Shown here: positions 1-14,332 of the stretch, one piece after another
Layout: every line of letters starts with the position of its first letter
How positions within the stretch are numbered: position 1 is the stretch's first letter
Virus record (IMG/VR): IMGVR_UViG_3300033553_000270
Span: 1 to 22,360 of that record
Source of the DNA: a virus
Length of the DNA stretch: 22,360 bases
Direction: 5' to 3' (one strand)
Notes under the pieces: model-generated
What the model was told of the DNA's origin: nothing
What the model saw: only the letters and a program-made list of their open reading frames with translations
Database searches by the model: none
Translations under genes and position numbers: made by a program

Positions 1-990
1 CGGACGTCCAAGTTTAGGAAGAAGTCTTTGAGTTGCTTGATTTAACTTAGTCTCCATCCATTCAATGTGGGTAGGAACTCTAACAGTTTTACCCTTATTT
101 GAAATAGCTCTACGAATACTTTGATCAATCCACCAAGTTGCATAAGTAGATACTTTAGTCTTTTTAGACGAATCAAACTTATCAACAGCCTTCATTAAGC
201 CAATGTTTCCTTCTTGAATTAAGTCATCAAAGTCAAGACCTTTATTCACGAACTTCTTTGCTCTAGAAACCACAAGTCTAAGATTCTTCGTGATTAACTT
301 GTTCTTGTATTGAGATGCTTGAGATTCTAATGAAGCAATGTTTCCAAAGATCGACTTAACTTCGTCAATATTATGAATGTTAAGTGTCTTATATACGTCG
401 TTAAGCTCGTTAAGGGACTGCTTCCATTCATTTAATTTATTAGTCAATCTAATATCATTAAGATTGAATTCAAGTTTTAAACGAAGCCCTAATTCTGGGG
501 CGTTATTTAAAATTTGACGACGAATTTCTTCATCAGACTCTTTTGAAAAGTAACGTTTAATTGTAATGTATTTAGCTTCAGCATCTTGAATCTTAACGTA
601 TTTCTTCTTAATCTCAGTAACTACGCCATGGATAATTGTTCCAGTTAAAGATACATCATTTAATGTTGTAGTTAAGAACTCAACATCTCCGTTGTCCAAT
701 TCTGAAATAAGAGATTTGAATTTAGATAAGATTTCGTCTTGAAGAGACTTACTAGAATCTTCATCGAGTTTCTTAGAGATATCTATAATAGATTCTCCAG
801 ATGAATCAAGACTCATCAAATAAGTCTTAAGTTCTTTTCGAGCATACGTAGTCACTAGAAGATTTGTTAAAATCTCTTTTTGAAAGACTTCAACGTTTTT
901 GATTAAATGTTCTTCTTGTTCTCTAGTGAGTAATGGACCTGAATCGATTGCGTTTAAGTACGAGTATGCAGACTCTTTTTTGTTATACAT
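1..990 (-). CDS. RpoD-like sigma-70 factor (N-terminal part; cut by window edge)
   Basis: 330 codons run from ATG at 990 to the window edge, so the C-terminal part (regions 3 and 4) is not visible. Residues 8-34 resemble sigma region 1.2 (LLTREQEE). Residues 35-230 are a long divergent segment, like the non-conserved region of primary sigmas. Residues 231-311 are a clear region 2: [14 protein letters not shown], then [20 protein letters not shown] (252-271), then [16 protein letters not shown] (281-296) and VRVPTHIEW. This block is much closer to RpoD than to small phage sigmas such as T4 gp55. In the -10 recognition helix, the position of E. coli R436 is Asp289 and that of T440 is Arg293, while Q437 is kept. 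The expected role is to direct host RNA polymerase to phage promoters. It is divergent from the dUTPase operon. Ribosome site AGGGGG lies just before the start. Confidence 0.93.
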
Positions 991-1018
991 TGTAGAACCC
1001 CCTACAGTTGTTATTGTA
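991..1018 (-). promoter_or_regulatory. Sigma-gene leader: SD in a hairpin loop, weak promoter just upstream
   Basis: Read on the minus strand, TGTAG and CTACA (1002-1006 and 991-995) form a 5-bp stem directly before the ATG. The six-base loop is GGGGTT and holds the Shine-Dalgarno core. A weak promoter, TGTACA, 16 bases, TACAAT (-10 at 1013-1018), would start transcription near 1006, so the mRNA would begin with this hairpin. The hairpin is seen in the sequence; promoter use and any translational control are inferred. Confidence 0.35.
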
Positions 1019-1154
1019 ACTTGATTAGTAATTCTGTACATAAGTTTTTCAGTTGTCTATTACTTAGACGATCGCGATGTACATAGTTTTGACGATTAGA
1101 CAGTTCATTCACTTATTCACAATAACTTGGAATAATAACGACTGCGAGGTAACT

Positions 1155-3702: not shown

Positions 3703-3773
3703 GATGTCGTCGTTCAAATAGTAGGACGTGGGATTTTAAACCCGAGATGTAGGTGCAACTCCTACCGACATCG
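3703..3773 (+). tRNA. Degenerate tRNA or tRNA-like RNA, identity unclear
   Basis: A cloverleaf can be drawn. Acceptor: GATGTCG (3703-3709) with CGACATC (3766-3772), 7 perfect pairs, extendable by two outward. D stem: GTTC (3712-3715) with GGAC (3724-3727). T arm: GTAGG (3749-3753), loop TGCAACT, CCTAC (3761-3765). U8, A14, G19, A21, U54, C56 and A58 are present. Oddities: position 18 is A and position 55 is G, so both partners of the usual G18-psi55 contact are changed. The anticodon arm is poor: only TGGG/CCCG pairs around an 8-base loop ATTTTAAA. A 7-base reading gives anticodon UUA, the other register UUU (Lys). No CCA is encoded. It may be a diverged tRNA, a non-decoding tRNA mimic or a processing signal. 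Confidence 0.45.
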
Positions 3774-8348: not shown

Positions 8349-8756
8349 ATGAGTAAGGTTTTAACGGGTTCGAAAGCAGCCCTAAAGATCAATGGTGTTA
8401 AAGTTGGATACGTTGGTGGAGTAAACATCGACGAAACTAACGAACTTACAGACATTGACGTTCTAGATCAATTAGAAGTTGCTGAACATGCTGAAACAGC
8501 TCACAAGGTTTCTTTTAGCTGTAACATGTTCAAAATCGATGGAAACTCTACAACTCAATTAGGGATTTCTGCAGCGAACATTAAAGACATCATGAGTCAA
8601 CCTGAGTTGACGATGGAACTTTATAATACAGTTGACGATAGAGTTGAATACACTATCTCAGGTGTTAAGTGGGCAGGTGGTTCTGGTTCTGTTGATGCTC
8701 GTGGAGTATGGCAAGGAACTTGGAACTTTAAAGGAAGAATCGGTCGCGGTATGTAA
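8349..8756 (+). CDS. Tail tube protein
   Basis: A 135-aa beta-rich protein. KAALKINGVKVGYVGGVNID (9-28), the central LYNTVDDRVEYTISGVKWAG and the C-terminal GVWQGTWNFKGRIG give the alternating-strand pattern of the short contractile-phage tube fold. Such proteins stack as hexamers to make the inner conduit inside the sheath. Size (130-170 aa is usual) and position right after the sheath and linker genes agree. It begins 1 base after the upstream stop with a perfect AAAGGAG. It is followed immediately by two hairpins, the second a strong terminator, which closes this operon. Confidence 0.82.
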   Translation: MSKVLTGSKAALKINGVKVGYVGGVNIDETNELTDIDVLDQLEVAEHAETAHKVSFSCNMFKIDGNSTTQLGISAANIKDIMSQPELTMELYNTVDDRVEYTISGVKWAGGSGSVDARGVWQGTWNFKGRIGRGM

Positions 8757-8762
8757 TTGCTG

Positions 8763-8834
8763 GTGCTAAGTTCTTTTGGCACGATATGGGCTCTGTAGAG
8801 AAATTCCCCCTTCTTTACAGAGCCTTTTTATTTT
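8763..8834 (+). terminator. Intrinsic terminator after the tube gene, with a preceding hairpin
   Basis: The terminator stem pairs 8789-8802 with 8811-8824 (GGCTCTGTAGAGAA with TTCTTTACAGAGCC): 14 pairs including one G-U. The loop is ATTCCCCC and the tract TTTTTATTTT follows at 8825-8834. Just before it, GTGCTAA (8763-8769) pairs with TTGGCAC (8776-8782), possibly a 3' mRNA-stabilising hairpin. The structure is one-directional: read on the minus strand no T-tract follows, so it is a poor stop for the convergent cassette. Confidence 0.88.
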
Positions 8835-9060
8835 AGAAAAATGAACCACCTTCATAATCATCGTCCTCGCCATCTTCTTCATCGTCAACATTCTCAGAAA
8901 TCTCGATATGTTCTAATTCTGTTGCCTGCTCAAGTCCAATTACTGTGGGACGTCCACACAACAAACAAGCGTCTAATTCACTAGAGATGTCATCGCACTT
9001 TGTGCAGTATCCGTGACCTTCATCTTCGTGTTCATCGTACTGTCTTTGAGTCATTCTCAT
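8833..9060 (-). CDS. Zinc-ribbon protein with acidic tail
   Basis: A 75-aa protein with Cys19-x2-Cys22 (CTKC) and Cys32-x2-Cys35 (CLLC), a compact four-Cys zinc-ribbon or rubredoxin-like knuckle with only nine residues between the pairs. From about residue 46 on it is strongly acidic, with a Glu/Asp run at 59-70, suggesting a flexible tail that could mimic nucleic acid or bind a basic partner. The exact function is unknown. Its ribosome site AAGGAG lies inside the last codons of the cytochrome-like gene. Last gene of the reverse cassette; its stop abuts the terminator T-tract of the opposing tube operon. Confidence 0.75.
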   Translation of the reverse strand: MRMTQRQYDEHEDEGHGYCTKCDDISSELDACLLCGRPTVIGLEQATELEHIEISENVDDEEDGEDDDYEGGSFF

Positions 9061-9062
9061 AA

Positions 9063-9362
9063 TTACTCCTTGCTTCCTTGATTGTACCAGTCTCTAAATA
9101 GAGCCCGTTGTTCGTTAGTTAATGTTTTACCGGCTGGCATACTTTTATCGATCACTACTCTTTGATAAATAAGTTGACGACGATTATAAGCATTTTCATA
9201 AATAGAATAGTCTCTTATTCCATCGTTATGACAACTAATGCATACGGTCGACGTAATAGGTTTAATTTGGTCGTTAAAGGTTACGTTAGTGGTAACTGTA
9301 ACTTGAGATTTTTCACCGCAAGAAACGGAAAATAGAACCACTATAAGTATAATGGCTCTCAT
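9063..9362 (-). CDS. Mono-haem cytochrome c-like lipoprotein
   Basis: A 99-aa protein. The N-terminus MRAIILIVVLFSVSC is a short lipoprotein-type signal with Cys15 as probable lipidated residue (the lipobox is slightly atypical at -3). The mature part has CISCH (41-45), the CXXCH motif for covalent haem c. SMPAG (74-78) supplies a plausible distal Met75, followed by the helix LTNEQRALFRDWYNQG (81-96) ending as in small bacterial cytochrome c domains. If lipidated and haem-loaded it would be a membrane-anchored periplasmic electron carrier; it would depend on host Sec, lipoprotein and cytochrome c maturation systems. Its ATG overlaps the TGA of the 42-aa membrane gene (ATGA), indicating coupled translation. 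Cytochromes are not part of standard phage gene sets. Haem binding is predicted from motifs only. Confidence 0.78.
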   Translation of the reverse strand: MRAIILIVVLFSVSCGEKSQVTVTTNVTFNDQIKPITSTVCISCHNDGIRDYSIYENAYNRRQLIYQRVVIDKSMPAGKTLTNEQRALFRDWYNQGSKE

Positions 9363-9487
9363 TGATCTTTCTTCTTTTTAAGGAGTTTTTTGAGACCCAG
9401 GGCTCCAAGAACTAGGAATCCGCCTGGTGTAATGGTGGCAAGTACGCCGATAATGATGAGTTTCTTCCAATCTGGTTTGTTAGCCAT
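9359..9487 (-). CDS. 42-aa single-pass membrane protein
   Basis: Translation from ATG at 9487 gives MANKPDWKKLIIIGVLATIT, then PGGFLVLGALGLKKLL and a terminal KKKKDQ. One membrane segment (about 10-32) is flanked by Lys on both sides, with a strongly basic tail. The ribosome site AAGAGG has good spacing but lies in the 3' arm of a hairpin (9492-9523). The stop overlaps the next start as ATGA, tying its translation to the cytochrome-like lipoprotein. It could anchor or partner that protein or act independently; the sequence does not decide. Base composition and codon use fit its neighbours. Confidence 0.7.
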   Translation of the reverse strand: MANKPDWKKLIIIGVLATITPGGFLVLGALGLKKLLKKKKDQ

Positions 9488-9491
9488 AAAA

Positions 9492-9523
9492 CCTCTTGGG
9501 ACGATGATAACAATCCCAAGAGG
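9492..9523 (-). promoter_or_regulatory. Perfect 10-bp inverted repeat covering a ribosome site
   Basis: CCTCTTGGGA (9492-9501) and TCCCAAGAGG (9514-9523) are exact inverse copies with a 12-base loop. On the minus-strand mRNA the 3' arm ends in AAGAGG, the Shine-Dalgarno of the 42-aa gene, followed by only TTTT before the ATG at 9487. It could hide the ribosome site, act as a weak terminator after the 66-aa gene, or serve as an operator. The repeat is seen directly; the role is inferred. Confidence 0.6.
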
Positions 9524-9532
9524 CAAAGTAAA

Positions 9533-9733
9533 CTAGTCAAGAACTTTAATTTGATCCAGAAATATGGCTGTTGCAGGGTCAACCAATATCTGTTTATGAC
9601 ACTTTGGACAAACTAAGTTGCCTAAGCGGCGTAGGGCAATTTCTACTTCGAACATAGTGAATTGGTCACACTTGGAACAATAGAGGTTATTTAGTTGTTT
9701 ATGGCGGCTTAGGTCCGCAACTGTGACTTCCAC
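9533..9733 (-). CDS. Small zinc-ribbon protein
   Basis: A 66-aa protein with Cys19-x2-Cys22 (CSKC) and Cys42-x2-Cys45 (CPKC) separated by 19 residues, the classic zinc-ribbon spacing. The intervening segment FTMFEVEIALRRLGNLV supplies the strands. The start is GTG at 9733 with AGGAAG upstream at acceptable spacing. Such small ribbons in phages are often adaptors for nucleic acid or RNA polymerase, but no specific function can be assigned. It lies 2 bases from the end of the 77-aa gene, and a strong inverted repeat follows its stop. Confidence 0.72.
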   Translation of the reverse strand: MEVTVADLSRHKQLNNLYCSKCDQFTMFEVEIALRRLGNLVCPKCHKQILVDPATAIFLDQIKVLD

Positions 9734-9735
9734 GG

Positions 9736-9969
9736 CTATACTTCCTGTAATACCAACCTAAAGACTCGAGCTTTTGCGCTTTTACGGTGCGCTTTATCTT
9801 TGGTTTTTTCTTCGAAGTCAGATAACGCCTCTTTGGCATTCTTGAATAGGGACTTTTCAGCGACTAAGACGTTCTTACCAGGTTTAACTTCCTCTGGAAC
9901 GCCATAACGATCCATACCTTGTTTAAGCGTCTCTCCAGATTTGATCCAACCGTATCCGATAACTTTCAT
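9736..9969 (-). CDS. Small basic protein, function unknown
   Basis: A 77-aa protein, not recognised. It starts MKVIGYGWIKSGETL, has a central helical part rich in Lys and Glu (FKNAKEALSDFEEKTKDKAH) and a short C-terminal strand (ARVFRLVLQEV). It is basic overall. The start follows GGAGG at ideal spacing. It is the first gene downstream of the 120-base non-coding gap that holds a 19-bp palindrome, so it may begin a second transcription unit inside the reverse cassette. No membrane or metal motif. Confidence 0.68.
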   Translation of the reverse strand: MKVIGYGWIKSGETLKQGMDRYGVPEEVKPGKNVLVAEKSLFKNAKEALSDFEEKTKDKAHRKSAKARVFRLVLQEV

Positions 9970-10064
9970 AGTGCCTCCATCGTAAGCTTAACATGTTAAT
10001 TTGTTAAGTCGTATGAATACACTCTAAAACGGCGACTATACTTTGAACAATAAATTATAGGGAT

Positions 10065-10083
10065 TGTGTAAAAATTATACACA
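10065..10083. promoter_or_regulatory. 19-bp operator-like palindrome in the cassette's internal gap
   Basis: TGTGTAAAAATTATACACA has 9-base half sites with one mismatch around a central A. The minus-strand TATAAT (10074-10079) lies inside it and a second minus-strand TATAAT is at 10054-10059, both upstream of the 77-aa gene at 9969. A repressor bound here would cover the -10. No good -35 is visible. The gap 9970-10089 holds nothing else that I recognise. Confidence 0.45.
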
Positions 10084-10089
10084 TAAGAA

Positions 10090-10257
10090 TTAAGATGCTA
10101 GTTTTACATCTTCAGAATGCATCATGTATATCAACTGTATACCATCGACGTGGTTGACACCCATAGCTATAAAGTCATATTTCAACGATGGACCATCCGC
10201 CACGTGAACCATACACCATGATTTATCAGCAGACAGAACGATCTTATCGATTACCAT
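10090..10257 (-). CDS. 55-aa protein overlapping the subtilase gene end
   Basis: The ATG at 10257 has a near-perfect ribosome site (AAAGGAG, 6 bases away) located in the last codons of the subtilase gene. The two coding regions overlap by 14 bases. The protein begins MVIDKIVLSADKSW, continues CMVHVADGPSLKYDFIAMG and ends in MMHSEDVKLAS. It looks like a small alpha/beta domain and has no known motif. The strong start signal and overlap make it a likely real, coupled gene. Function unknown. Confidence 0.6.
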   Translation of the reverse strand: MVIDKIVLSADKSWCMVHVADGPSLKYDFIAMGVNHVDGIQLIYMMHSEDVKLAS

Positions 10258-10945
10258 TGAGTGCTCCTTTTATTTGTGCACAACGTAACTTTAAAGCTTT
10301 ATGCATTGCTATGGCCGTGGCCTGAGAAGTTCCTCTTAATGACTGATATTTGCCATCATTAAAAGTAGATTTAATATAATCACCGTATTCTTTAATTGCT
10401 AACTTATGAGTGTTGGAATAACTGCACGTTTTACAAACGGCTTGGACCATATGAACATTGGTCATATTATGTTTATACCTATAAGCTGAAGGATAATAAA
10501 CAACTTTGCCACCTAATGCTTCTCCGTTATTTCCTGCAGCAACATATACTTCACCTTTATATTGTCTAAATGATTGATGCTCTGCTTTAATATAGCCTGG
10601 ACCATTACTACTAATGTTTACATAATCAAAATTCTCTCTACGAGCTCTTTTCATGCAATTAGAAATACCTTCAAGTTCAGCGAAATAATCATAATATTTA
10701 CATGAATGAATCTTGACTTCAGGACACAGTGGATCATTTAGATCTTTGCCTAAAGCAACAATTCCGGCAATATGAGTGCCGTGCCCAGTACGATCTACAT
10801 AATTATCTGAATAGTCGTATTGAACACTCGTCAAATCTGAATGTGGTGCAATTCCAGTATCCACAATAAGGACTTTGATCTCGTTATTCATAGGTTCGAC
10901 AGAACCGACATAAAGCATCGTCAATAATAAAGTTGTATATTTCAT
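10244..10945 (-). CDS. Secreted minimal subtilisin-like serine protease (S8)
   Basis: A 233-aa protease with the full subtilase triad in order: Asp29 in VLIVDTGI, His55 in TGHGTHIAG, Ser207 in RGTSQATA, plus the oxyanion Asn139 in AAGNNG. The N-terminus MKYTTLLLTMLYVGSVEP looks like a short signal peptide, with the catalytic domain starting straight after it and no room for the usual prodomain of about 70-80 aa. Several Cys (74, 82, 97, 171, 174) could form disulfides outside the cytoplasm. It is small for S8 (catalytic domains are usually about 270 aa or more). The start follows TAGGAG. It sits second in the reverse cassette, 1 base after the upstream stop. Possible roles are processing of virion or host surface proteins, lysis support, or an anti-competitor function; none is proven. 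Confidence 0.88.
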   Translation of the reverse strand: MKYTTLLLTMLYVGSVEPMNNEIKVLIVDTGIAPHSDLTSVQYDYSDNYVDRTGHGTHIAGIVALGKDLNDPLCPEVKIHSCKYYDYFAELEGISNCMKRARRENFDYVNISSNGPGYIKAEHQSFRQYKGEVYVAAGNNGEALGGKVVYYPSAYRYKHNMTNVHMVQAVCKTCSYSNTHKLAIKEYGDYIKSTFNDGKYQSLRGTSQATAIAMHKALKLRCAQIKGALNGNR

Positions 10946-10946
10946 C

Positions 10947-11444
10947 TTAAACTCCTAGAAGTTTATGGAGTCTTTCAGACACTTCTACTGAAGCGATTCT
11001 TAAATAGTGATCATAGATACGATAATAAAGAAGACGTGCATATTTAGCGTACGCAGCTTCTAAGTCATCATGAAACCATTCAGAATTTTGATTAGCATTT
11101 GCGACGTAGCTCTTAACATTAAAAGAAATATGACATACATCATAATCTTCCATGAATTCAGAACCTAGTTTGTCAATTAACAACAACGTCTTCTTTCCAC
11201 GAAAACCTTCGAATAGTTCTTTAATATCTTCTTGACATTGGTGGAATTCTGCCATTTTAGCGATATCTGCTTTTTGTTGAATCTCTAAAGTCGCAGCTGC
11301 AATTGCAGTTCTACGATCAAGTTCAGCATCTATTAATATAAAGATTGGGTGATTTTCAGAAAGATCATTAAGAATGTTATACAAAAAATCTTCAGATAAT
11401 CTAGTGACGTTCTCGGCTGTAACTTTGATATTTTTGTTAAACAT
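10947..11444 (-). CDS. Helical protein of unknown function, first gene of the reverse cassette
   Basis: A 165-aa protein, mostly helical by composition. An N-terminal part (NILNDLSENHPIFILIDAEL) is followed by an Ala/Gln/Glu-rich helix (about 45-80, AIAAATLEIQQKADIAKMAE), a central VCHISFNVKSYV segment and a C-terminal helix with many Tyr and Arg (YAKYARLLYYRIYDHYLRI). No signal, membrane or catalytic motif. The start follows AGGGGG at good spacing. The upstream gap (11445-11599) is shared with the divergent chaperone genes; a weak minus-strand TATAGT lies at 11454-11459. Function unknown. Confidence 0.7.
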   Translation of the reverse strand: MFNKNIKVTAENVTRLSEDFLYNILNDLSENHPIFILIDAELDRRTAIAAATLEIQQKADIAKMAEFHQCQEDIKELFEGFRGKKTLLLIDKLGSEFMEDYDVCHISFNVKSYVANANQNSEWFHDDLEAAYAKYARLLYYRIYDHYLRIASVEVSERLHKLLGV

Positions 11445-11530: not shown

Positions 11531-11560
11531 TTCACCTACATAGATCCACCATGATATAAT
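11531..11560 (+). promoter_or_regulatory. Extended -10 promoter for the tail chaperone to baseplate block
   Basis: TGATATAAT at 11552-11560 is a perfect extended -10, with a weak -35 TTCACC at 11531-11536 and an 18-base spacer. The start point would fall near 11567, about 33 bases before the ATG at 11600, whose ribosome site is GGAG. It supports restart of plus-strand transcription after the reverse cassette. Confidence 0.6.
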
Positions 11561-11599
11561 ATCAAACAGATAGATTAGATTTAGATTGGAGATAAAAAC

Positions 11600-11998
11600 A
11601 TGAGCAAAAACAATAGCTTAATTGATGAGCTACCCGATACTCGACACCAATTCGAAATTGACCTTCAAGGCAAAGTAACTAAAAAGCGTTTCGCAGGTGA
11701 GTTTGCCTGCAAAATCCCAAATATTAAAGACCAAGCTATGATCGCCAAACATCAAGCCATGTTAAATGGCGAATACCCAATCTATTTAGATGCTGGTGTT
11801 TTAAAAGTCCATCAAATGATTGCGTACTTACGTTATACATTGACAGAATACCCACTTTTTTGGAAACAATCAGATTTAGGTTATGAATTACGTGACTTTA
11901 ATATTATTGAAGCTGTTTACGATGAAGTCTTGGCCTTTGAAGATGAATGGTTGAAGCAAATCTGGGGTACAAATGACGGATCCAAAACCGAAGGTTGA
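11600..11998 (+). CDS. Probable tail assembly chaperone, first of an overlapping pair
   Basis: A 132-aa protein. The first part (DELPDTRHQFEIDLQGKVTK, then KRFAGEFACKIPNIKDQAMI) is beta-rich, followed by helices (VLKVHQMIAYLRYTLTEYPL, then YDEVLAFEDEWLKQIWG). Small acidic proteins of this shape, encoded directly before the tape measure and overlapping a second small gene, are typical tail chaperones that coat the tape measure during assembly. The start follows GGAG. The 3' end overlaps the next gene by 26 bases in the +1/-2 relative frame. The call rests mainly on position and layout; sequence motifs for this group are weak. Confidence 0.58.
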   Translation: MSKNNSLIDELPDTRHQFEIDLQGKVTKKRFAGEFACKIPNIKDQAMIAKHQAMLNGEYPIYLDAGVLKVHQMIAYLRYTLTEYPLFWKQSDLGYELRDFNIIEAVYDEVLAFEDEWLKQIWGTNDGSKTEG

Positions 11999-12371
11999 TC
12001 CTTATAAAGGTATCAAATATATAGGGTATCGCATAAGTCAACTTCCAGATCGTTATAATATGTCAGACTTGATCAGATACGCTAAATTTGTCTTAGCTTC
12101 CAAGACTCATAGACTTTTAAAAGATCCTATTTGGGATGACTATACAGTCGAAGAACTATTAATCGAGTTTTACGCTCATCAATTTAATGATTCTAAAGAA
12201 GCCAGAATCGCGTTTGAACAGTCTTTAGACATTGCAACCGACAACGTAGACGACTTTGCGGCGTGGGCTGATGCAGAGATAGCTAAAGAAGATAAAATTA
12301 GAGAGAAGACGTTAAGCGAGTTAGAGGATTCAGTTTCCTTCAGTCCATCCGACGTCATGGGAGATGATTAG
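11973..12371 (+). CDS. Probable second tail assembly chaperone (T-like)
   Basis: A 132-aa helical, acidic protein (IAFEQSLDIATDNVDDFAAW and an Asp/Glu-rich end) immediately before the tape measure. Its frame is offset +1 (equivalently -2) relative to the upstream gene. It may be made from its own ATG at 11973, preceded by GGGG (11964-11967) at 5 bases, or as a fusion by programmed frameshift in the 11955-11998 overlap. The stop TAG shares its last base with the GTG start of the tape measure. It corresponds by position to the T part of the lambda G/GT pair; homology is not demonstrated. Confidence 0.55.
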   Translation: MTDPKPKVDPYKGIKYIGYRISQLPDRYNMSDLIRYAKFVLASKTHRLLKDPIWDDYTVEELLIEFYAHQFNDSKEARIAFEQSLDIATDNVDDFAAWADAEIAKEDKIREKTLSELEDSVSFSPSDVMGDD

Positions 12372-14332
12372 TGACCACTCAATTAAAAATTACAGCCGAT
12401 ACATCTGATGTAAAGAAAAGTATACTTGACATCGGTAAATCAGTCAAGGACCTTAAAGGCTCCAAAGTAGCTATATTTTCAGCTGAAGATAAGAAGTTCC
12501 TTAAAGGTGAAATGAAGAAAGAAATAGGCTTAATGAAACAAAAGCTTAAAGATAACCGAGCCGAGATTTCAGCTGCAGTTAAAGAACAACAAAAAATGGT
12601 TGAAGGTTCTAAAGAGGAACTTGAATTACGTAAAAAGATTCTAGAAGCATATAAAGTTCAAGCCAAATTAGGTAGAGACTTAGGCCAAGCTCAAAAAGGT
12701 TCAAAAGACACAAAAAACAATACCGGTGGAATAATGGATTCGGTATTAGGAATTGCTCGAATGATTCCGGCATTGGCTGCAGCCGCCACGATTGGTTATG
12801 CCCTCAGTAAAGGGAAAGCCTCTAGTGATCAATATGTGGGCGGATCTGGTTCAAGAAACCAATTAAAAGGCTTAGGAGTCAGCGATGAAAACTTCGGGTC
12901 GCCTGAACAACTCGCTCGAGTAGGATTAACCGAACAAGACATGATTCAAAGACGAAACGACGCTACTTCCACATTAGGCCGTCAAGGAAGTGGTAACGAA
13001 ACTGAAATGAGAAAAGCAGCCTTTGAAAGAGCTTATGGCCTTCAAGGTGGAACTATGACTGGAATCGCCGGGCAACTTAGAGGCCAAAAAGGTGGTGAAG
13101 GTGCCAATGATGCTCAAATGAAATTACAAGCTTCAGTATTTGCATCTGGTATTGAAGATGCAATTGGTCCTTACTTACAATCAGCAGTTCAATTATTAAC
13201 TTCAATCAACGAAGCAGGAACGGCTAATACGGACGAAATCACAAATTTAATGGCTCAATTAACTAAAGATGGTCAACGCACGCCGGAATTGATTGCTAAA
13301 ACGTTCGCAGGAATGGATTCAGCAGTTAAAGGTGCAACTGGTGAAAACAGTGCATTTTTACAAACAGCATTTGCTCGTTCTGGAATTGGAGGCGGTACTT
13401 TAGGCGGAACTAAATACGCAATGTCATCAGGTGGAATCATGGGTCAAAACCGTGGAGAACTTGAGAAGCGTGGCTATAATAAAGATTTATTAGACAATAT
13501 GGAAAACGGTGGAATGTTTACTGGAGCAGGTAAACGTACGGGCGCAATACTAGATCAAATAAAAAGTTCAGGCGGTCTAAAAGCAGGTGAGAGTGTCGGC
13601 GGCGTTAAGAGTAGCGATCAAATGGTCGGTATGAATAATTTAGCAAACAACGTATTTGGAACTAAAGGCGATCAAGGTTTTGATGCTTTAATGATGCTTG
13701 AAAAAGTTCAAAATAAACAAATGAGCCAAAAACAATTTGATGAAAAATTGAAGAAGATGAAAGAAGGAGAAGATCCGTCTTTATCTAGACTCGATACAAT
13801 CAATAAGAGTTTATCTGGTCAAACTGAATTGTTGAGTAATATCAATACGAATTTAATGGAAGCTTTAGGTAAACAAACAGCTCAAGGTCGAAACGCTTTA
13901 GTGCGTTCAGACAATCAAGGAATTATCGGAGTTGATAGTGTCGCAGGAGCAGTTAACGAGAGCGGCTTGACTAAAGGGGCTGGAGACCTTGCAGAAGGTT
14001 CTGGTAGAGCGATGAACTCAGGTATTCTAGGTGAGAAGATGGCTGATTGGTCGGGTAAAGGAAGAGCTGCTCGAGCTAAAGTTGCACACATGACTTCTGA
14101 ATCTGGAGTTGTTGAATTCGCTAAAAAACGCAGAGATGAAGGTAAAGGCTTCATTGGAATGAGCGACGAAGAAATTGAAAAGAAAGTACACGCTACAATG
14201 AGTAAATCTGGATTAGCTAAAGATATTGGTAAAGAAGTAGGAAAGGCAATGAAAGAAGCTCCTATTACGAATACTAATATCAATAAAATTCAAATGCCAG
14301 ATGGTAGTGTTACAAATAGGATTAATAAATAA
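12371..14332 (+). CDS. Tape measure protein
   Basis: A 653-aa protein starting at GTG, with GGGAG (12359-12363) as ribosome site. The N-terminal 110 residues are charged and coiled-coil-like (many Lys/Glu/Gln), followed by a hydrophobic segment at about 124-146 (LGIARMIPALAAAATIGYAL), then a long Gly/Ser/Ala-rich central part and a Lys-rich helical C-terminus. This coil plus hydrophobic segment layout, together with position after the chaperones and before the hub, is characteristic. Tape measure length scales with tail length at roughly 1.5 angstrom per residue, which would give a tail of about 95-100 nm. The gene is large but modest for this class. The stop shares bases with the next ATG (TAATG). 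Confidence 0.85.
   Translation: MTTQLKITADTSDVKKSILDIGKSVKDLKGSKVAIFSAEDKKFLKGEMKKEIGLMKQKLKDNRAEISAAVKEQQKMVEGSKEELELRKKILEAYKVQAKLGRDLGQAQKGSKDTKNNTGGIMDSVLGIARMIPALAAAATIGYALSKGKASSDQYVGGSGSRNQLKGLGVSDENFGSPEQLARVGLTEQDMIQRRNDATSTLGRQGSGNETEMRKAAFERAYGLQGGTMTGIAGQLRGQKGGEGANDAQMKLQASVFASGIEDAIGPYLQSAVQLLTSINEAGTANTDEITNLMAQLTKDGQRTPELIAKTFAGMDSAVKGATGENSAFLQTAFARSGIGGGTLGGTKYAMSSGGIMGQNRGELEKRGYNKDLLDNMENGGMFTGAGKRTGAILDQIKSSGGLKAGESVGGVKSSDQMVGMNNLANNVFGTKGDQGFDALMMLEKVQNKQMSQKQFDEKLKKMKEGEDPSLSRLDTINKSLSGQTELLSNINTNLMEALGKQTAQGRNALVRSDNQGIIGVDSVAGAVNESGLTKGAGDLAEGSGRAMNSGILGEKMADWSGKGRAARAKVAHMTSESGVVEFAKKRRDEGKGFIGMSDEEIEKKVHATMSKSGLAKDIGKEVGKAMKEAPITNTNINKIQMPDGSVTNRINK

Follow-up and report, generated by a model that had tools for sequence, protein, structure and literature searches.

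A probable accessory gene island with a predicted exported subtilase at the tail tube-chaperone junction of uncultured contractile-tailed phages

The bor and lom genes of phage lambda are morons, accessory cargo genes carried by tailed phages. HK97 gp15 is a further gene of this kind (PMC9936078). A related arrangement is the homing endonuclease gene (HEG) island, in which nuclease genes lie at the boundaries of exchange (Barth et al. 2023, PMC10448857). The locus described here is an antisense gene island in the virus record IMGVR_UViG_3300033553_000270 of IMG/VR, whose entire 22,360 bases are referred to as the window. On the plus strand of the window, nucleotide-metabolism genes are followed by a contractile-tail operon. 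Between the tail tube gene (8349-8756, +) and the gene of tail assembly chaperone 1 (11600-11998, +), this operon is interrupted by 2846 bp with eight credible minus-strand genes. They were named m8 to m1, m8 being transcribed first and lying nearest to the chaperone, and m1 being last and nearest to the tube. The block is probably an accessory island of the moron or cargo type, fixed between tube and chaperone within the tail operon of an uncultured contractile-tailed phage family. On the best reading it is transcriptionally insulated, with an exported protease and a small membrane protein as its recurrent occupants.

Morons and the island have in common that extra genes lie between neighbouring structural genes and outside the tail units, with products likely acting on the host. 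The island differs in being multi-genic, mostly antisense and bound to one junction throughout the lineage, and in holding unrelated subtilases (peptidase S8) in the same slot. Extra genes in or near this interval are also known from cultured phages. The Bacillus phage Moonbeam (Herelleviridae) carries about 7 kb of them between tube and chaperone, and the Myxococcus phage Mx1 has a large accessory stretch after the sheath gene with tRNAs, an HNH endonuclease and a calcineurin-like phosphoesterase. In both phages, however, nearly all of the extra genes run in the direction of the tail genes, and neither an exported subtilase nor a cytochrome-like gene is annotated there. The Pseudomonas phage Dolphis, unlike the window, shows a tight tube-chaperone arrangement, as judged by gene position. 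An earlier note on this DNA, made from the sequence alone, had stated that the chaperones directly follow the tube in most contractile phages; Dolphis and the relatives L019 and L020 agree with this, whereas Moonbeam does not. No description of the island was found in the open literature, which is weak evidence as subscription papers were not covered.

About 16 related records, designated by L numbers, were obtained from IMG/VR by one sheath scan and two tube-alignment scans. The interruption of the tail operon recurred in every same-lineage record with both borders: the tube-chaperone gap ranged from 783 to 9103 bp in the window and nine of nine relatives. It measured 1926 bp in L009, 2386 bp in L011 and L014, 9103 bp in L004, 4164 bp in L016, 1916 bp in L017 and 783 bp in L018, and about 3.7 kb in L191 and 5.8 kb in L193. 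In contrast, tube and chaperone genes are joined in L019 and L020, which are among the most distant relatives (tube identity 39%), with 82 bp between them. The island thus resembles a moron in being an insertion. Most other late-gene junctions were shorter than 100 bp, with scattered exceptions, among them the junction of the sheath gene with the tail gene after it in L002 (insert 11861-13784), L015 (3263-4581) and L193 (8453-9497). The insert in L002 encodes a 600-aa minus-strand protein resembling a homing endonuclease. Genes in the tube-chaperone gap were mainly on the minus strand in every island, including those on the partial contigs L007, L008, L012, L013 and L196. Exceptions on the plus strand were chiefly an endonuclease gene immediately following the tube and, in L016 and L017, a gene for an exonuclease or 2-oxoglutarate (2OG) oxygenase. 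The tube-chaperone junction is an insertion slot with a strong minus-strand bias.

Both ends of the island are marked by signals for tail transcription. An intrinsic terminator (8788-8835, +) follows the tube gene, with a 15-pair stem and a T-run (-23.4 kcal/mol, folding z -6.4), and the strong left terminator proposed in the earlier note is thereby corroborated. A hairpin with a T-run was also present after the tube in L007, L008, L009, L012, L013, L016, L017 and L018, and a weaker one was seen by inspection in L019. On the right, the extended -10 element TGATATAAT (11552-11560, +) precedes the unit of chaperone and tape genes. Taken alone it was not significant, as 16 promoter-like sites were found in the region against 15.3 expected. 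The TATAAT upstream of the chaperone was, however, invariant in all eight island-bearing phages aligned, and by inspection is missing from the 82-bp interval of L019. The proposed right-hand promoter is therefore upheld by conservation and not by its single-sequence score. A conserved leader, TTAGATTTAGATTGGAG, lies between this element and the chaperone (11575-11591, +). It occurs once in the window, and the same or a close version was found in six phages (window, L004, L009, L011, L014, L026). Terminator and conserved promoter together predict two tail transcription units around the island. Tail transcription would end past the tube and restart ahead of the chaperone, so that neither unit would include the island, and the island itself would be transcribed divergently from the m8-chaperone intergenic region. 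The transcription boundary between tube and chaperone may be older than the island. A phage sigma-70-like factor is encoded at 1-1041 (-), divergent from the late genes (Sigma70_r2, 2.8e-21), and is conserved in relatives, e.g. L002:4158-5543. It could read the conserved chaperone promoter.

The largest island protein is m7 (10244-10945, -), a predicted exported subtilase of 233 aa. The 'protease' of the earlier note was confirmed as a match to Pfam PF00082 with 62 bits against a cut-off of 21.8 (6e-17). The structure model had a pLDDT of 90 and matched subtilisins at E 1e-15. The catalytic residues D29, H55 and S207 and the oxyanion residue N139 were invariant in 12 sequences. By these residues, the Pfam score and the modelled fold, m7 is a member of peptidase S8, and proteolytic activity is predicted. 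It departs from S8 subtilases in being phage-encoded and in its layout, as a signal helix (2-14) directly precedes a bare catalytic domain starting at residue 23, with no propeptide. Narrow scans for close relatives of m7, m8 and m2 gave none or one, and alignments and whole-record searches were needed.

A clade comprising the window, L009, L026, L004, L193, L011 and L014 shares this feature. All seven members have a visible right border and a minus-strand subtilase at the chaperone side, directly adjoining the chaperone except in the window, where m8 lies between. Each has a signal-like N-terminus, the catalytic Asp, His and Ser and the oxyanion Asn. The subtilase was found at no other site of the records searched, so the scattering across relatives that would have spoken against a linked cassette was not seen. 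The 119-kb record of L191 had no subtilase match at all, and neither had the records of L016, L017 and L018. This absence, together with the differing gene content, lends indirect support to the island being dispensable for particle production, as morons are. A single origin of the island subtilases was tested as monophyly and rejected (p-AU 4e-51). Well-supported branches force at least three label changes on the tree. Window, L009 and L026 fell within exported phage subtilases, L011 and L014 in another phage subtilase group, and L004 and L193 among Bdellovibrionota sequences. More than one origin is a firmer statement than exactly three because several long branches are present. In L011/L014, the one pair tested, the subtilase is under purifying selection with a dN/dS of 0.21, and the adjacent small membrane gene had 0.16. 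Recruitment of subtilases from more than one source into one slot suggests a real function in infection. Separately, seven other phage contigs (L041, L042, L043, L045, L058, L071 and L084) encode non-exported subtilases of about 290-310 aa. In each contig the next gene overlaps the subtilase gene by 4 bases and encodes 65-80 aa with a membrane helix at the N-terminus; protease and membrane protein thus recur as a pair.

In all clade islands, the subtilase is accompanied by a one-helix protein of 38-84 residues. In the window this is m3 (9359-9487, -), a 42-aa membrane protein with a PGG motif and a lysine-rich tail, and homologues were found in L009 (38 aa, 1.3e-5) and L026 (41 aa, 2.6e-4). 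A stable hairpin (9491-9524, -; -20.1 kcal/mol, z -4.5) holds the AAGAGG ribosome site of m3 in its 3' arm. The neighbouring gene m2 (9063-9362, -) encodes a lipoprotein-like protein of 99 aa with the pattern CxxCH...MP...W of c-type cytochromes. Homologues were detected in the island of L193 (1.2e-8), which also holds a subtilase, and in L090 (1.9e-11), an unrelated phage record with a subtilase 4.7 kb from the m2 homologue. CxxCH, Met75-Pro, Trp92 and Gly96 were invariant among the three proteins. Against PF13442, m2 scored 13.4 bits, under the cut-off of 27, whereas a bacterial homologue scored 48 and exceeded it; the structure model of m2 (pLDDT 39.5) was uninformative on the fold. On account of this score and of the uninformative fold model, m2 is named only cytochrome-like, and in this sense the 'cytochrome-like lipoprotein' of the earlier note was borne out through its homologues. 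With the tandem cytochrome c lipoproteins (PF13442-type) of Bdellovibrionota, m2 shares CxxCH, Met-Pro, a C-terminal Trp-Gly, a lipoprotein or membrane anchor and about 40% identity. It differs in having one domain in 99 residues and in being phage-encoded. A phage c-type cytochrome lipoprotein was not found described in the open literature, again weak evidence with subscription papers uncovered.

Bacterial kin of m2 occurred in 21 of 290 Bdellovibrionota genomes against two of 289 sampled Pseudomonadota and five of 287 sampled Bacteroidota genomes. Indirect evidence points to a host that is probably Gram-negative and may belong to Bdellovibrionota. The tube was not found in bacterial genomes in a pattern scan of GTDB species.

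With its signal peptide and no propeptide, m7 would be exported, and so would m2. In a Gram-negative host, the subtilase, the one-helix protein and the cytochrome-like lipoprotein would act in the periplasm or at the inner membrane. Host envelope proteins would be cleaved there, which may serve superinfection exclusion or aid takeover or lysis, and such cleavage is the most likely role of the island. The action at the host envelope suggested in the earlier note thus applies to m2, m3 and m7, three of the eight proteins, which look exported or membrane-bound, and to the recurring pair of subtilase and small membrane protein. It does not extend to the slot at large, which in relatives also holds genes for a DNA methylase, MazG, an exonuclease, a phosphoesterase and a 2OG oxygenase. 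A joint function gains from the conserved linkage of subtilase and small transmembrane protein and from the cytochrome-like protein in two family members, and falls short of proof. A bolder version is doubtful: the three proteins would form a dedicated periplasmic module against the respiratory or envelope layer of Bdellovibrionota-type hosts, which it would attack or rewire. Phages not otherwise related (window, L193, L090) would share it in part, under selection strong enough to recruit unrelated subtilases repeatedly into the same slot and orientation.

Island content varied strongly. The island of L004 encodes a DNA methylase, MazG, a HAD protein, metallopeptidase-like proteins and a tRNA-Asn. 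Clade B, comprising L016, L017 and L191, has a calcineurin-like phosphoesterase, as Mx1 does, together with an exonuclease, and L016 and L191 also carry a 2OG oxygenase. A family of 75-76 aa proteins starting with MYRLRDLK was observed in the islands of L009 (7916-8143), L004 (9667-9897) and L193 (14879-15109) and is not present in the window; it had no Pfam or PHROG match where tested. Endonuclease genes lie at the tube edge in seven relatives, assigned by families or homology in L004, L011, L014 and L193 and by inspection only in L016, L191 and L196. A variable region bordered by nuclease genes that adjoin an essential structural gene is a likeness to HEG islands. In contrast to these, no endonuclease gene is present in the window's island, its edge included, or on the chaperone-side flank. 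The tube-edge genes suggest that turnover is driven by recombination, which would agree with the exchange boundaries described for HEG islands (PMC10448857).

These endonucleases, the highly varied content and the additional inserts at other tail junctions also fit a neutral hot spot, a transcription boundary that tolerates the arrival of homing endonucleases and passenger genes and favours no particular function. Exchange further predicts the high dS of the L011/L014 subtilase (0.54), which exceeds that of the chaperone (0.28) and the tube (0.08). This explanation is nevertheless rather unlikely, given the purifying selection on the cargo, the subtilase in seven of seven clade members despite more than one origin, and an island without endonuclease gene in the window. 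The fixed place of the subtilase beside the chaperone in the window's clade might instead indicate maturation of the tail or virion, with the protease processing tail or baseplate proteins or travelling in the virion. Signal peptides and a position on the opposite strand, outside the tail units, argue against this role; L191 and L016 to L018 have homologous tail genes and no subtilase match, and in unrelated phages exported subtilases have other genes as neighbours. Virion maturation is accordingly quite improbable, and the assignment to cargo made in the earlier note, as opposed to virion assembly, is supported by the variable content, the island-free L019 and L020, the bounding terminator and promoter and the long L191 record without a subtilase.

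An auxiliary lysis cassette, in which m3 is holin-like and m7 and m2 help to break the envelope late in infection, would account for the single helix and lysine-rich tail of m3, for the hairpin covering the m3 ribosome site, and for the exported protease adjoining the one-helix protein in L026, L004, L011 and L014. No endolysin, spanin or known holin family was found in the island with Pfam, PHROGs and NCBIfam, a one-helix protein of 38-53 aa is short for a holin, and clade B does not have the pair, which makes this cassette improbable. Least support was found for an IetAS-like anti-phage system carried by the phage, suggested by weak matches of the subtilase to IetS and 'subtilase' models. 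Only the S8 core matched IetS (2.8e-8, 70 residues of an 826-position model), no IetA-like ATPase was present, the other seven proteins had no PADLOC match, and the S8 protein is predicted to be exported. With neither a full-length IetS nor an IetA partner, the IetAS reading was rejected, and a defence island is highly improbable.

Several observations weigh against the accessory island acting at the envelope. The island has a G+C of 37.1% against 37.5% for the flanks and no sign of foreign composition. As morons are also recognised by deviating composition, the block is said to work like a moron region and is not called a textbook moron. For the minus strand, the window offered no convincing promoter, the weak candidate being TTAACC-17-TAGTAT upstream of m8. 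Clade B islands hold cytoplasmic enzymes and no subtilase, so that 'envelope' does not describe the slot overall. The sheath was not found in 368 Bdellovibrionota genomes, which gave no prophage or direct host link.

The gene calls of the island were reviewed with codon usage. It backed m1, m2, m3, m5, m6, m7 and m8 (z 2.0-5.9). The minus-strand block described in the earlier note stood, with eight genes in place of nine, as the open reading frame (ORF) at 9699-9839 (-) was rejected for having no coding signal (z -0.4) and overlapping two other ORFs. Its tight packing was found in gaps of 1-2 bases, a 14-base overlap (10244-10257) and an ATGA overlap (9359-9362); it is not uniform, as gaps of 120 bp (9970-10089) and 45 bp (9488-9532) occur within the block. 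A perfect 12-bp palindrome, TTAACATGTTAA (9988-9999), lies in the 120 bp that separate m6 from m5 and is a possible operator for a second minus-strand unit, m5-m1. The first gene of the minus operon, m8 (10947-11444, -; 165 aa, z 5.9), had no relatives in Pfam, PHROGs and the narrow relative scan. The 55-aa m6 (10090-10257, -) was partly similar to a gene in the corresponding place of L009 (tblastn, 44% identity over 25 residues, 5e-4), and m5 (9736-9969, -; 77 aa, z 2.9) had no family match in Pfam, PHROGs and NCBIfam. The zinc-ribbon-like m4 (9533-9733, -; 66 aa, GTG start) had the weakest codon signal of the eight (z 0.7) and weak zinc-ribbon matches below the cut-off, and its call rests on two CxxC pairs. 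Two CxxC pairs and an acidic tail were also found in m1 (8833-9060, -; 75 aa, z 3.1), with a counterpart at the same position in L007 (45% identity, E 1e-13). Of the flanking genes, the tube has orthologues with 39-90% identity in IMG/VR relatives, adjoining the sheath, and chaperone 1 matched PHROG 1038 tail assembly chaperone (1.5e-5) and has orthologues in relatives. In nearly all relatives the genes of chaperones 1 and 2 share about 17-29 bases (11973-11998 in the window), which may reflect frameshifting or coupled translation. A tRNA at 3703-3773 (+) was detected with Rfam RF00005 (45 bits) and missed by ARAGORN. Its anticodon loop ATTTTAA was read by inspection as probably tRNA-Lys UUU.

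For a phage family without cultured members, the tube-chaperone junction represents a predictable site where host-interaction genes gather. The arrangement suggests a tail operon made up of two transcription units with antisense cargo between them. A c-type-cytochrome-like protein is added to the known phage cargo. Recruitment of an exported subtilase into one slot more than once makes its function directly testable, with a host envelope target as the object.

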